This document shows positions 17,047-23,017 of a stretch of DNA of 64,000 bases, piece after piece. Source of the DNA: an archaeon (lineage in GTDB: Archaea > Nanobdellota > Nanobdellia > Woesearchaeales > GW2011-AR9); NCBI GenBank assembly GCA_018697095.1, contig JABHSG010000004.1, forward strand, positions 186,001 through 250,000. The letters run 5' to 3'. How positions within the stretch are numbered: position 1 is the stretch's first letter; each line of letters starts with the position of its first letter. The position numbers were made by a program, and so were the translations under genes. The notes under the pieces are model-generated. The model did no database searches. It saw only the letters and a list, made by a program, of their open reading frames with translations, and was not told the origin of the DNA.

Positions 17047-17658
17047 TTAAAATTTATTACAACAAGTATAACTCACAAACCGATAACGTAATTCACCATC
17101 ATTTTGCCAAGGTCTAATACTAGGTTCATTCCAATTCGCTTTTCTACCATCTAAAATTTTTGGGAAATAACAATCACCTTCAAACTCCTTCTTATCTACT
17201 CTTTCAACTTCAGTTAACTCCAATCTATCTGCCCAAATCATAAAATCCTGATATGTTCTAGCGCCACCTAAAACACTTACACTTGAATAATCAATACCAG
17301 AAAGTCTTTTGCCACCACTTCCAATTAATTCTAAAGCCTCTCTAGAACCTCGAACAAAATCAACTTCTATTTCTGATTTTTGACACAAATCCTTAAGGCC
17401 ATTTTTCAAAGAATGACTACGCTGCGAATCACCAACAACAACTAGATGACTTCTAGGCCAACTTCGATAAATTATTTCTTCAATTCCCTTAAAAGTATTA
17501 TATCCAAGTATTACTGGTTTATTAGAAATAAAGTCTCTATGTAAACGCAATCTATCTGCTTCAATTCTTGCCCAAGGGATACTTCTCTCATTACCAATAA
17601 CCAAGTCCCCATTAGAATTCTTTCCAACTGCAGCAACTAAAACAATATCCATGCTCAT
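17047..17658 (-). CDS. folA: Dihydrofolate reductase
   Basis: Reduces dihydrofolate to tetrahydrofolate with NADPH. The 203-residue protein has the DHFR start (IVLVAAVGKN...LVIGNERSIPW), the acidic residue in the following helix (RIEADRLRLHRDF), KPVILGYNTFKGI as the cofactor/helix C motif, and VSVLGGARTYQDFM matching the GG nucleotide-binding turn. It is slightly longer than typical bacterial DHFR (about 160-170). It lies 2 nt downstream of folC on the same strand, so the two are co-transcribed. ATGs at 17658 and 17652 are both possible starts. Its presence is notable because ThyX, encoded nearby, does not produce dihydrofolate. Confidence 0.88.
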   Translation of the reverse strand: MSMDIVLVAAVGKNSNGDLVIGNERSIPWARIEADRLRLHRDFISNKPVILGYNTFKGIEEIIYRSWPRSHLVVVGDSQRSHSLKNGLKDLCQKSEIEVDFVRGSREALELIGSGGKRLSGIDYSSVSVLGGARTYQDFMIWADRLELTEVERVDKKEFEGDCYFPKILDGRKANWNEPSIRPWQNDGELRYRFVSYTCCNKF

Positions 17659-17660
17659 CC

Positions 17661-19046
17661 TTACATCACAGCTCCTTTCAAATCAACTAATTCTTTTTTC
17701 TCTTTAGCGCCATTTTTACTATTTCGCTCTTCCAGAAGTTTCATCAAATCACCAACTAAGTACAAAGATCCACAAACAAGTATCATTCCAGAATCTCCAA
17801 CTAATTCAAGCGCTCGATCCCAAGCACAAGAAAGTTCCATTGCTTGCATTTCATAAAAAACAGATTCCTTAGCAACATCTTCTTTTTTCTGTGCTCGATG
17901 CCCAGCTTCTGTAATAATAAAATGATCAAACTCTTCGGCTAAATATTCACTCATTTGCCTAGCACTCTTTCCAGTAGATAATCCAAAGATAACAACGCGA
18001 TTTTCAATTGCTGGCAAACTCTCGCGCTGTTCTTGCAAAAAAGTCTGTAAACGTTTCATGCCAGCATAGTTATGTGCCCCATCAAATATCACAAGTGGGG
18101 AATGTGAACCTTTTGGTCCCAGAAATCTTGATTTCTCAGGATACACTTGTAACCTCCCAGGCCACTTAGCATCACGCAAACCTGCAGCAATTGAATCACT
18201 ACTAACAACAAACCCAAGACCATTCAACACTTCACACACTTTAATCACAACACAAGCATTCTCTATTTGATGACTGCCTAACAAACCTAACTCATACTCC
18301 TTCCCACCCAAACTAAACTTCTGTCCACCTAAATCACTCAAACCCAGAGAATATGAATAATCAACTTTTGACAGTATACTGTCAAGTTCAGCACATATCG
18401 AACTAAACAGTTTTACAATCTCAGAGTTCTTTTCTCCACAAACCAAAGGCACACCTTTTTTTATCACACCAGCTTTCTCAATTGCAATTTTCTCGCGAGT
18501 ATCTCCCAAAACCTTTGTATGGTCAAGATCAATATTTGTAATCACTGATACCAAAGAATTCACAACATTAGTTGCATCAAGTCGGCCACCTAAACCAACC
18601 TCAAGTACAGCCACATCAACTCCCATTTTTGCAAAATACACAAACGCAGCAGCTGTAGTAAACTCAAAGAACGTTATCTCACCAAACTTCTGATCATCAT
18701 TTAAGGCAGCATTATCATAAGAATCCAACTTCTGCTTAATTTCAATCACAATCTCTCGCAGTTCAGAAACACTAATTTTCTTACTATCAATTTGTATCCG
18801 TTCACAAAAATCCACTAAATGTGGAGATGTGTACAAACCAACTTTCCTACCACTACAAGATAAAACAGAATTTAGCATAGCGCAAATAGATCCCTTACCA
18901 TTAGTACCAGCAACATGAACGCTAGCAAACACATTATGTGGATGTCCCAAAACCTCCATTAATCGCTCCATCCGCGAAAGACCAAACTTCACTCCAAAAT
19001 GCTGCAAGTTATACAAATAAGCTATCGGATCAAATGAATCTACCAC
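17661..19046 (-). CDS. folC: Folylpolyglutamate synthase / dihydrofolate synthase
   Basis: Adds glutamate to folates (and possibly to dihydropteroate) using ATP. The 461-residue protein has the FolC start NLQHFGVKFGLSRM, the Mur-ligase P-loop HVAGTNGKGS, TSPHLVDFCERI, the VLEVGLGGRLDATNV region, TNIDLDHTKVLG, and FDGAHNYAGMK towards the C-terminal domain. Length and motif order are normal. The start is a GTG at 19046. It shares an operon with dihydrofolate reductase, giving a two-gene folate unit next to the divergent thyX-glyA pair. Confidence 0.92.
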   Translation of the reverse strand: MVDSFDPIAYLYNLQHFGVKFGLSRMERLMEVLGHPHNVFASVHVAGTNGKGSICAMLNSVLSCSGRKVGLYTSPHLVDFCERIQIDSKKISVSELREIVIEIKQKLDSYDNAALNDDQKFGEITFFEFTTAAAFVYFAKMGVDVAVLEVGLGGRLDATNVVNSLVSVITNIDLDHTKVLGDTREKIAIEKAGVIKKGVPLVCGEKNSEIVKLFSSICAELDSILSKVDYSYSLGLSDLGGQKFSLGGKEYELGLLGSHQIENACVVIKVCEVLNGLGFVVSSDSIAAGLRDAKWPGRLQVYPEKSRFLGPKGSHSPLVIFDGAHNYAGMKRLQTFLQEQRESLPAIENRVVIFGLSTGKSARQMSEYLAEEFDHFIITEAGHRAQKKEDVAKESVFYEMQAMELSCAWDRALELVGDSGMILVCGSLYLVGDLMKLLEERNSKNGAKEKKELVDLKGAVM

Positions 19047-19513: not shown

Positions 19514-19658
19514 AACAAATCCTAATTTACAAAGCTTCTTTAAAAAGCCTGGGGCACAACTTCACCACGGTAGCAATTTCTTTTTCTTCAAATCTTACTT
19601 CTGGAAACTCATAATCCTTAAAAAGCCAAAACAAGCTAAATCTACTTGGGTGGACTAA

Positions 19659-21506
19659 GTGGAAAAGCAAAATAACAATTCTCAAACAATAAATCAAGAT
19701 AACAATAACTCCTCAGCCCAAAATAGCACTTCTTCTACAATATCTACTTCCAAAAATATCTTTGATAGAACAATTTCTCAATATACCAAACAAGCTATGC
19801 CTGAAGAACAAAACATAGCCAAAACCAAAACTTTTGGAACAACTTTGGAAACCCGTGAATTCACTGATGATGAAAAGATCGTTCTACTTCATTTCTTCAC
19901 AAATATCGACAAAAATGTTTATGCAGCTACTGATGCTATGCCAAATTCACTATGGGCACTTTTGGAAGGGGGCTACTCCAGAGCTCAAGAAAGTATGCGT
20001 ATGAGGTTTTTAAAAATATTCTCTGACATGCAAAAAGACTTAGACAAAGGCAAAATCACCCAAGATGAAATTATAACTATTGAAGACTTTGCAAAAAAGA
20101 TAAATTCAAATGATTCACTTAATCTTTCTTATTTTCTAACAAAAGCTGAAAAATTCATGCGTAAATGGGCTGTCCAATATGGTCACGACTCACTAAAAGA
20201 TTCAGACATATTAAGATTCGCAATTGAAAACGTTACTCAATTCGCAACAGGACCAATTGAAGAAGCAAGGCTAGGAGCTTACCAAGAAAAATCAACAAGA
20301 TACGTAGAATTCTCTAAAGATCATTTAGTAGTTCCAACAGACCTAAAAGAATTCGCAGAAGAAATAAGGCAATGGAATAACCTTCTAATCAAAAATTATG
20401 ATGAATCTCGCGAAATTGTTTCTAATTTTCTAAGCAAACGTATCAATCAAGAAAGTTTCAAATCAGAAGCAGCATTCAAAAGAACAATTGAAGCTAAAAC
20501 CTTTGACATCATCAGATATTTTATTCCAACTACTATGCTAACTTCAATTGGTGTAGTATGGCCAACTAGAGAAGCTGAACGTCACATTTCAAGATTAATG
20601 TCAGATCCACGCGAAGAGATCAGAAGTATCGGATTTGCCCTTCTTGAAGAAGGAAAAAAAATATCTCCAGGCCTTTTAAGTCATGTTGCAGTTAATGAAT
20701 ATCAAAAACAAAGAGAATTAGACATTACAAATATCTTACAAAAATTAAAACTAAACCAAGAACAAACAACTATTGATCGTAGCCAAGATGCTGTAAAATT
20801 ATTAAGTTTCGATCAAGACACTGAAGCTAAAATCGCAGCCGCCATTTTGTTCGAACATGATATTAAAGGACAAAGTTACGCGCAATACCTTAACCTTTGC
20901 AAACAAATCCCTCTCATCATTGAGCCAGTGATCAAATCCTATTGTGAAAGTCGTGGTAAATTCGATGCACTGCCTATCGCAACTGAGCTTGGTTCCATGC
21001 TCTTTGAAGTTACCATGGACTATGGTGGTTACCGTGACCTTAAACGTCACAGAAGAAACCTTTTACTCACAGCGCCACTTACAGCAGAGATTGGTTACGA
21101 ATATCCAGAGCACGTTACAGATTTCCCTGAATTAAAAGCAGTTAAACAACGAATCGATTTTTGTGCAGAAGCAACAACTCATCTTTATAGAAAAGTAAAA
21201 TCAAAATACCCAAAGCTCGCAGTATATCTCACCATGTTTGTACATAAACAACGTTACATCTGGCAAATGGATCCAAGGCAGCTAGCTTATGTGACAGAAT
21301 TAAGGTCAACTCCTGCTGGGCACTGGTCATACCGCGACATCGCGCAACGTATGTTTAGACTAACACAAGAGCATTTGCCAACTTTAAGTAAATACATTAA
21401 TGTAGATCTAACTTTAGGTGATGAAGGTAGGAAAAAACAAGAAGAAAAAACGGTAGAAAAACTAAAAGCACTCGGCGAAGATAATCTGCAAAAAGTCACA
21501 TTCTAA
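19659..21506 (+). CDS. thyX: Two-domain flavin-dependent thymidylate synthase (ThyX-ThyX fusion)
   Basis: Probably methylates dUMP to dTMP using methylene-tetrahydrofolate and FAD. At 615 residues it is over twice the usual 220-250, because it contains two ThyX-like halves. The family signature RHRxxSxNExSxRY is split: the first half reads EARLGAYQEKSTRY (202-215), keeping E-S-RY but losing RHR. The second has KRHRR (RHR at 463-465) but lacks the ExSxRY part. A composite active site is therefore likely. The N-terminus carries a low-complexity Asn/Ser/Gln tail of about 35 residues. The GTG start follows a strong GGGTGG ribosome site at 19648-19653. glyA follows 26 nt downstream. Confidence 0.85.
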   Translation: MEKQNNNSQTINQDNNNSSAQNSTSSTISTSKNIFDRTISQYTKQAMPEEQNIAKTKTFGTTLETREFTDDEKIVLLHFFTNIDKNVYAATDAMPNSLWALLEGGYSRAQESMRMRFLKIFSDMQKDLDKGKITQDEIITIEDFAKKINSNDSLNLSYFLTKAEKFMRKWAVQYGHDSLKDSDILRFAIENVTQFATGPIEEARLGAYQEKSTRYVEFSKDHLVVPTDLKEFAEEIRQWNNLLIKNYDESREIVSNFLSKRINQESFKSEAAFKRTIEAKTFDIIRYFIPTTMLTSIGVVWPTREAERHISRLMSDPREEIRSIGFALLEEGKKISPGLLSHVAVNEYQKQRELDITNILQKLKLNQEQTTIDRSQDAVKLLSFDQDTEAKIAAAILFEHDIKGQSYAQYLNLCKQIPLIIEPVIKSYCESRGKFDALPIATELGSMLFEVTMDYGGYRDLKRHRRNLLLTAPLTAEIGYEYPEHVTDFPELKAVKQRIDFCAEATTHLYRKVKSKYPKLAVYLTMFVHKQRYIWQMDPRQLAYVTELRSTPAGHWSYRDIAQRMFRLTQEHLPTLSKYINVDLTLGDEGRKKQEEKTVEKLKALGEDNLQKVTF

Positions 21507-21532: not shown

Positions 21533-23017
21533 ATGGAAGAGTACATAACAGCTAATCAGGATAATAACAACAATACTCCAAACACTACTAGCTACCAAAC
21601 TATTCAAAGCGCCAACAACCTAGCAGCTTCTACACTTCCAACACAAAACTCTACTAACCAATCACCTCTTCAAGCACAAGACCCAGAAGTTTACAATCTA
21701 ATTAAACAAGAAGAACAAAGACAACAACACAAACTTTCTATGATCGCTTCTGAAAATTTCTTCAGTAAAGCAGTACGTGAAGCAACAGGTTCAGTTCTTT
21801 CAAACAAATACTCTGAAGGGAACACTGGTAAACGTTACTACGAAGGAAACGAATTCATTGATCAAATTGAACTTCTCACAATCGCTAGAGCTAAAGAAGC
21901 GTTTAATCTACCTGATGATTGGTCAGCGAACGTTCAAACCCTTTCTGGTTCAACTGCAAACCTATCTGTATACTTAGCTCTTCTAAACATTGGAGATTTT
22001 ATCATGGGGATGTATCTTCCTGATGGTGGACATCTAAGTCACGGTTGGTCTTATACACCTAAACAACCAGCAGATCCAAAAAAAACAGTATACTATGGTG
22101 GAAAAAACAAAGTAAATATCTCATCTAAGATTTTCAACACAATTTCATACAAAGTTGATCCAGTAACAAAACAATTTGATTACGACGAAGTTGAACGTAT
22201 TGCAACTCTGCAAAAACCTAAACTTCTAATCACTGGTGGAACAGCGTATCCAAGAAACATTGATTACAAAAGGATGAAACAAATAGCAACCAAAGTTGGT
22301 GCATACTACCTTGCAGATGTTGCTCACGAAGCAGGCCTTGTAGCTGCTGGCGCAGTTCCAAGCCCAGTTGGTATCGCTGACGTTGTAACTATGACAACTC
22401 ACAAAACTTTAAGGTCAGGACGCTCAGCAATTATTTTAGCTCATAAAGACATTATCAAAAAAATCAATAAAGCAGTACTTCCTGGACTTTTAGGAGGACC
22501 ATTTAATCATGCAATCGCAGGTGTTGCTGTTGGCCTAAAAGAAGTTAATACACCGCAGTTCAAAGAGTACGCACAGCAAGTTGTCAAAAATGCACAACAC
22601 TTAGCAAATGAACTAATAACTAAATACCAATTCAACGTTGTGTCAGGCGGAACTGATAAACATCTTGTACTCATAGATCTAACAAATAAAAACGTTCCAG
22701 GTAGATTTTTCTCAAAAGCCTTGGATCACGCAGGCATTGTATCAAACTATAATACAATCCCTGGAGATTTGAAACCACCATTAAACCCAAGTGGTCTTAG
22801 AATTGGAACACCTTGGATTACAACTCGTGGTATGAAAGAAGAGCAAATAACACAAATCGCTTCTTGGATGGATCAAGTCTTAAAAATTTGTCAAGAAGAT
22901 AGATATCAAGGGATCAAATTCAAAGATTTCAAAATAGAGATAAAACAAAACATAGAAATCCAAAGAATCGCGAAGGAAGTTAAACAGTTATGTCTGCAAT
23001 TTCCACTTGACATCTAA
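21533..23017 (+). CDS. glyA: Serine hydroxymethyltransferase
   Basis: A PLP enzyme interconverting serine and glycine with transfer of the one-carbon unit to tetrahydrofolate, the methylene donor used by ThyX. The 494-residue protein has MIASENF, YYEGNEFIDQIE, NVQTLSGSTAN, DVAHEAGLVAAG and the PLP-lysine motif TTHKTLRSGR. The first 55 or so residues are an extra Asn/Thr/Gln-rich tail absent from ordinary GlyA (about 420 residues) and similar in style to that of the neighbouring ThyX; both contain NQDNNN. It sits 26 nt after thyX on the same strand, with GAGGC upstream of the ATG. Confidence 0.93.
   Translation: MEEYITANQDNNNNTPNTTSYQTIQSANNLAASTLPTQNSTNQSPLQAQDPEVYNLIKQEEQRQQHKLSMIASENFFSKAVREATGSVLSNKYSEGNTGKRYYEGNEFIDQIELLTIARAKEAFNLPDDWSANVQTLSGSTANLSVYLALLNIGDFIMGMYLPDGGHLSHGWSYTPKQPADPKKTVYYGGKNKVNISSKIFNTISYKVDPVTKQFDYDEVERIATLQKPKLLITGGTAYPRNIDYKRMKQIATKVGAYYLADVAHEAGLVAAGAVPSPVGIADVVTMTTHKTLRSGRSAIILAHKDIIKKINKAVLPGLLGGPFNHAIAGVAVGLKEVNTPQFKEYAQQVVKNAQHLANELITKYQFNVVSGGTDKHLVLIDLTNKNVPGRFFSKALDHAGIVSNYNTIPGDLKPPLNPSGLRIGTPWITTRGMKEEQITQIASWMDQVLKICQEDRYQGIKFKDFKIEIKQNIEIQRIAKEVKQLCLQFPLDI

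Follow-up and report, generated by a model that had tools for sequence, protein, structure and literature searches.

The window analysed here, a stretch of 64,000 nucleotides of archaeal DNA, contains a gene for a protein in which the signature motif of flavin-dependent thymidylate synthase (ThyX) occurs in two separate parts. A preliminary description of the locus held that a fusion has split the functions of the motif between two domains, leaving composite sites in a pseudo-dimeric enzyme. The question raised by the locus is whether a polypeptide in which neither half carries the complete motif can be a working thymidylate synthase, and how its sites would then be put together.

Two ThyX domains in one polypeptide

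The gene occupies positions 19659..21506 (+ strand) and has a GTG start, with the sequence GGGTGG preceding it at approximately 19648-19653. That its 615-residue product is a ThyX with two halves was borne out by Pfam: the protein matched PF02511 (Thy1) with 80.4 bits, against a cut-off of 24.8, in two stretches (G000:C4:206139-206669 and 207096-207383), which places it in the ThyX superfamily. Its score with the NCBIfam ThyX equivalog model, TIGR02170, was 34.3 bits and thus below the cut-off of 87.9.

Profile–profile alignments were obtained with hhalign, using profiles of 67-68 fused relatives; canonical ThyX was represented by Thermotoga maritima (Tm) and Mycobacterium tuberculosis (Mtb) fragments and 15 single-domain proteins from the phylum. 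Both halves were matched, half 1 with an E value of 8e-21 and half 2 with one of 9e-15. Half 1 comprises residues ~60-345 (19836..20693, + strand), with its best PF02511 stretch at 161-337, and half 2, with the second PF02511 match, comprises residues ~375-585 (20781..21413, + strand). These alignments reproduced the register assumed in the preliminary description, the numbering of which proved exact: 20262-21059 encodes residues 202-467, with EARLGAYQEKSTRY at 202-215 and RHR at 463-465.

Structure prediction also assigned the protein to the ThyX fold. The AlphaFold2 monomer model, based on 62 sequences, is a confident two-domain model with a mean pLDDT of 88.3 and a pTM of 0.84; values below 50 are confined to residues 1-32. 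A search of the PDB with the model gave 150 matches at E<=0.001, the best 50 of which are all ThyX/Thy1 structures, those of canonical ThyX (2af6, 1o26/1o27 and 3gwc) being the best. No solved fused ThyX was found among the PDB relatives of the protein, all of which have 270 aa or fewer. The best viral structure matches were a 461-aa protein and gp020 of Microcystis phage Ma-LMM01, each aligned over both halves.

The N-terminus of the fused protein has a tail of ~45-60 residues, rich in Asn, Gln, Ser and Thr (INQDNNNSS...), as does that of the adjacent GlyA (ANQDNNNNT...), at 19659-19800 and 21533-21650, respectively. Such an N-terminus is found in only these two of the 51 ORFs of the window, and the tail of the fused ThyX is absent from relatives that are 60% identical to it.

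Distribution of active-site residues between the halves

Residue conservation was determined in 178 proteins, sampled as 100 fused relatives within the phylum plus 80 loci of GTDB genomes; an 80% identity filter left 157 of them as non-redundant. The percentages that follow refer to those 157 proteins.

In half 1, EARLGAYQEKSTRY (20262..20303, + strand) retains ExSxRY, as had been described: E210, S212, R214 and Y215 correspond to Tm E86, S88, R90 and Y91, with S212 and R214 each present in 99% and E210 in 90% of the proteins. Half 2 shows no conservation at the S88 and R90 positions, in keeping with the earlier statement that no ExSxRY follows the RHR there. The loss of RHR from half 1 needs a qualification, because the motif has degenerated to EAR. 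The first two positions have indeed gone (R78 is found in 6% and H79 in 11% of first halves), but the third Arg is kept as R204, and Arg occupies that position in 76% of the relatives. Half 1 further contains GHDS (residues 175-178; 20181..20192, + strand), the counterpart of Tm G52-H53-x-T55, in which G175 and S178 are invariant in A1 and A2; D283-I-I-R286 (20505..20516, + strand), the counterpart of Tm E144..R147, in which R286 (Tm R147) is present in 100% of first halves and in 6% of second halves; and R304 (20568..20570, + strand), the counterpart of Tm R165, where R is found in 71% and Q in 18%.

In half 2, RHR (residues 463-465; 21045..21053, + strand) lies in GGYRDLKRHR and aligns with Tm R78-H79-R80; R463 is present in 100%, H464 in 93% and R465 in 94%. 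R549 (21303..21305, + strand), equivalent to Tm R174, is likewise present in 100%, and the corresponding position of half 1, where it is almost never found, has L or M. Half 2 is without GHxS and often has an Arg at the R165 position. It is apparent that the fused chain as a whole holds the complete set of dUMP and FAD contacts: E210, S212, R214, Y215 and R286 in one half, and R463, H464, R465 and R549 in the other. The Q75 of ThyX is replaced by Asp in 83% of second halves, and H53 by Asp in 32% of first halves, so the fused site is not identical to that of canonical ThyX.

An actinobacterial clade of fused proteins (L165, L170-L178 and L183-L205, from Acidimicrobiia and relatives) naturally has Asp in place of the folate-stacking His (Tm H53), in the form YGDDS. 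Crystal structures of the T. maritima H53D mutant are available (4kar and 4kas).

Conservation of the division among relatives

The pattern RHRx(4-6)[EQ]xSxR in one stretch was found in none of the 178 fused relatives, compared with 14 of the 15 single-domain ThyX proteins of the same phylum. A search for a complete motif within one half, by register shift and by regular expression, also gave none; a full RHRxxSxNExSxRY in one half, the observation that the preliminary description had set against its own reading, occurs in none of the 178. The contiguous motif of canonical ThyX is thus lacking from the fused ThyX. The complete four-residue complementary pattern was present in 156 of the 178 proteins, and the opposite polarity in none, in a family whose members diverge to about 25% identity. 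Judged by these sequences, the split persists in some phages as well as in hundreds of genomes of archaea and bacteria.

Duplication often leaves a pseudo-enzyme copy behind, and one half might accordingly be a dead regulatory or structural copy, the live sites being built from the other type of half alone, as in the canonical homotetramer. That 76% of first halves retain the last Arg of RHR would fit such a scheme. It is contradicted by the absence, in virtually all members, of R78, H79 and R174 from half 1 and of E86, S88, R90, Y91 and R147 from half 2, given that canonical ThyX is crippled by mutations at such positions (S88A, R90A and Y91A), and is regarded as very improbable.

The fusion might also be decaying or artefactual in this genome, as a pseudogene or an assembly error. 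The genome is metagenome-like and in 4 contigs, and the N-terminal 45 residues of the protein are of low complexity and disordered. Against this, full-length relatives with 60% identity exist (L004, L005 and L126), of which L126 (G092), from a Candidatus Woesearchaeota MAG of the same GTDB family, is the nearest named relative. At least 585 related loci are present in GTDB species genomes (585 of the 588 matched stretches listed encode relatives), and the fused gene is intact in a complete cultured genome, that of Sorangium cellulosum So ceGT47. The conserved fused ORFs refute an artefact or pseudogene, which is hardly credible here. As to the host, the window most probably comes from a DPANN archaeon; a CPR (Patescibacteria) host was considered initially and set aside, since the closest relatives with a name are Woesearchaeota MAGs.

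Two further loci deserve mention. In two close bacterial relatives with 37-39% identity (L127:4001-5683 and L128:4001-5629, the latter from a Gracilibacteria MAG), TGA codons occur in frame at conserved Gly positions, and the fused thyX is intact solely when TGA is read as Gly (code 25). A 237-aa single-domain ThyX (L049; G179:C49:10544-11020) has RQR but no ExSxRY, its sequence there being TSSSQHY; judging from these motifs it may represent a C-type half that stands by itself. The same genome has a divergent fused ThyX elsewhere (G179:C19; L120, L209 and L210).

Comparison with solved structures and likely assembly

In the crystal structure of PolB, R86 (the first residue of RHR) and R193 (equivalent to R174) come from one monomer, and the neighbouring monomer provides E94′, S96′, R98′ and R166′ (equivalent to R147) (PMC5003785). 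In Mtb ThyX, subunit A contributes R95-97 (RHR) and R199, subunit B contributes S71 and R190, and subunit C contributes Q103, S105, R107 and Y108; Tm T55/Mtb S71 and Tm R165/Mtb R190 are the FAD contacts made by this third subunit, B (PMC6514825). The subunit division in PBCV-1 ThyX agrees (PMC3498832). The phosphate of dUMP is bound by R147, which lies on the same subunit as ExSxR (PolB R166′, PMC5003785; Mtb R172), and R174 ionises N3 of dUMP. The assignment of RHR to FAD and of the Ser/Arg part to dUMP, on which the preliminary description relied, is therefore too simple, as contacts to the nucleotide are also made by R174 and by the first Arg of RHR.

The partition in the solved ThyX and PolB structures, {E86, S88, R90, R147} versus {RHR, R174}, is exactly that between half 1 and half 2, from which it follows that half 2 has kept the role of subunit A and half 1 that of subunit C. 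The proposal that functions are split between the domains is thus supported both by the conserved complementary residues and by the published subunit assignments. The extent of the split had been understated: RHR and ExSxRY are divided as claimed, but R147 and R174 are partitioned as well. RHR and ExSxR each count as a single block, so that only a modest number of independent residues underlies the structural match; with four blocks (RHR, ExSxR, R147 and R174), a consistent sorting would arise by chance approximately 1 time in 8. The case for composite sites draws its weight from how strictly the residues are conserved and from the second fusion presented below.

Sites formed between subunits, as the preliminary description stated, are found in the solved enzymes, but three subunits contribute to each site, and the contacts of subunit B are also located in half 1 (S178 and R304). 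This points to a dimer of fusions, a pseudo-tetramer in which two sites would be live and two dead, as the likely assembly, rather than the simple pseudo-dimer originally supposed. Half 1 would supply the 'C subunit' part of a site, namely the ExSxRY nucleotide loop and R147, and probably the third-subunit contacts as well (GHxS and R165); half 2 would supply the 'A subunit' part, with RHR for FAD and nucleotide and R174 for activation of dUMP. Two polypeptides would pair as a pseudo-222 tetramer, in which the two half-1 and two half-2 domains would be so placed, within or between chains, that each half-2 domain could complete a site with the two half-1 domains. Each pair of chains would then have two complete sites, the other two potential sites being dead.

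Genomic context and thymidylate synthase function

No match to ThyA (PF00303) and no second ThyX were found in the genome that contains the window (G000, 94.5% complete), leaving the fused gene as the sole thymidylate synthase detected there. In a survey of 279 genomes of the phylum, only full-length ThyA was counted, to the exclusion of partial PF00303 matches. Full-length ThyA was present in 2 of 136 genomes with ThyX, compared with 67 of the other 143 (Fisher p=2.4e-21). The partial ThyA-like matches, used as a control, showed no exclusion of ThyX (p=0.31). Outside the phylum, full-length ThyA is missing from 38 of 39 genomes with the fused gene. The complete S. cellulosum So ceGT47 chromosome has no ThyA, and the fused gene was the only thymidylate synthase found in it. 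In a few genomes, full-length ThyA does accompany the fused gene (G052 and the Polyangium genome of L147).

The gene 26 bp downstream of the fused gene, at 21533..23017 (+ strand), was named from its sequence as glyA, encoding serine hydroxymethyltransferase (SHMT), which makes CH2-THF, the methylene donor of ThyX; in 12 of 29 relatives, too, glyA lies within 1.5 kb of the fused gene. A folC-like gene for folylpolyglutamate synthase, also named from its sequence, is located at 17661..19046 (− strand), and the fused gene has folC nearby in L004, L005, L014, L025, L029, L126 and L144 as well. Dihydrofolate reductase (DHFR, folA) is encoded at 17047..17658 (− strand; PF00186, 50.8 bits, over the cut-off). 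This neighbourhood, together with the exclusion of ThyA, fits synthesis of dTMP with CH2-THF: the fused enzyme would make dTMP from dUMP, with the CH2-THF coming from the neighbouring SHMT.

The possibility has to be weighed that the protein is a ThyX-fold flavoenzyme with another main substrate or reaction, such as methylation of UMP (as by PolB) or nucleotide modification, and not the thymidylate synthase of the cell. PolB employs the same residues for UMP (PMC5003785), and the fused ThyX scores under the equivalog cut-off, differs in some residues (Q75 to D) and coexists with ThyA in some genomes. Opposed to this are the near-perfect mutual exclusion with ThyA, the lack of another thymidylate synthase in the genome itself or in S. 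cellulosum, the clustering with folate genes and the strict retention of R174 and of the S88/R90/Y91 loop. A different main activity is considered unlikely. It is, on the contrary, highly probable that the product of the gene is a functional flavin-dependent thymidylate synthase composed of two tandem, subfunctionalized ThyX domains with composite sites. Many DPANN archaea, and bacteria such as Sorangium, probably have no thymidylate synthase other than the fused ThyX.

DHFR and folC, at 17047-19046, are divergent beside thyX-glyA, and DHFR has been retained even though the ThyX reaction involves no oxidation of THF to DHF. Separately, 61 genomes of the phylum contain only partial ThyA-like matches (profile positions ~88-230), in ORFs of ~215-230 or 470-570 aa (e.g. 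G042:C9:47520, G275:C5:9804 and G004:C1:360165). These ORFs may represent methanogen-type thymidylate synthases or a ThyA-like family of other function.

A second fused family

In a tree of the halves, a single clade with 84-88% support unites the N-halves of the window family with those of the B, C and E types, whether or not the motif columns are included; the C-halves were not resolved as one clade in the motif-free tree (46%). The D type (L109, L110, L112, L113, L121, L122 and L124, all of the same phylum) falls instead in a clade with the canonical ThyX proteins L040-L047 (RHRTANVNEYSMR) with 94-100% support, its N- and C-halves lying in separate clades, and each D half has its best match among L040-L047 (E values of 1e-24 to 1e-62). 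Since the D halves group with another canonical subfamily and not with the window family, their fusion looks independent. The polarity is the same in all seven members: half 1 has a VNEYSGRY-type sequence without RHR, and half 2 has RHRT without ExSxRY, together with R174. Unlike the window family, most D members retain R147 in both halves.

Fusion followed by complementary loss thus appears, from these sequence comparisons, to have happened at least twice, the exact count being limited by the short domain alignment (58-81 columns). We consider it probable that two independent fusions with the same polarity (ExSxRY in the N-half, RHR and R174 in the C-half) have each produced an obligate pseudo-heteromer with half of the ancestral sites, which serves as the sole thymidylate synthase in many archaea and bacteria. 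One genome (G007) carries both fused families, the main type as L077 (G007:C27) and the D type as L109 (G007:C59).

Relationship to known enzymes and implications

The fused ThyX shares its fold with canonical single-domain ThyX, or FDTS (T. maritima TM0449 and M. tuberculosis ThyX), and, as in those enzymes, E86, S88, R90, R147, R78 and R174 occur once per polypeptide. In the canonical enzyme, however, each chain has the whole RHRxxSxNExSxRY motif and forms a homotetramer with four identical sites, whereas the fused chain has two domains with complementary parts. PolB (a UMP/dUMP C5 methylase of polyoxin biosynthesis; 4p5a/4p5b) divides its substrate contacts between two monomers just as the fused halves do, but it is a single-domain, homotetrameric protein with the full set of residues in each chain, and its natural substrate is UMP.

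Fused proteins of the same two-domain length are already present in databases, deposited simply as thymidylate synthase, from phage Ma-LMM01 (gp020, 491 aa), Tunturiibacter phage Tunturi_5 and many bacteria, with ~24-28% identity to the window protein over residues 162-585. The Ma-LMM01 and Tunturi_5 proteins have GQERSTRY in half 1 and NRHR or HRHR in half 2, the same split as in the window, and three phage proteins in all show this division of motifs. No description of a fused or duplicated ThyX, or of a split site, was found in the literature searched, which covered few subscription journals; the architecture is therefore known from databases, and the split and its recurrence are without description in that literature.

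For annotation, the lesson is that these fused proteins fail the single-chain ThyX motif and yet are probably the sole thymidylate synthases of many of the genomes that carry them. ThyX is both essential and a drug target, and its site is common to three subunits. By sorting the subunit contacts into separate domains, the natural fusion provides an evolutionary dissection of which residues act together, and the fused chain allows each role to be mutated independently, as is never possible in a homotetramer. The second, separate fusion, if real, would mean that complementary degeneration after fusion is repeatable in the ThyX family.
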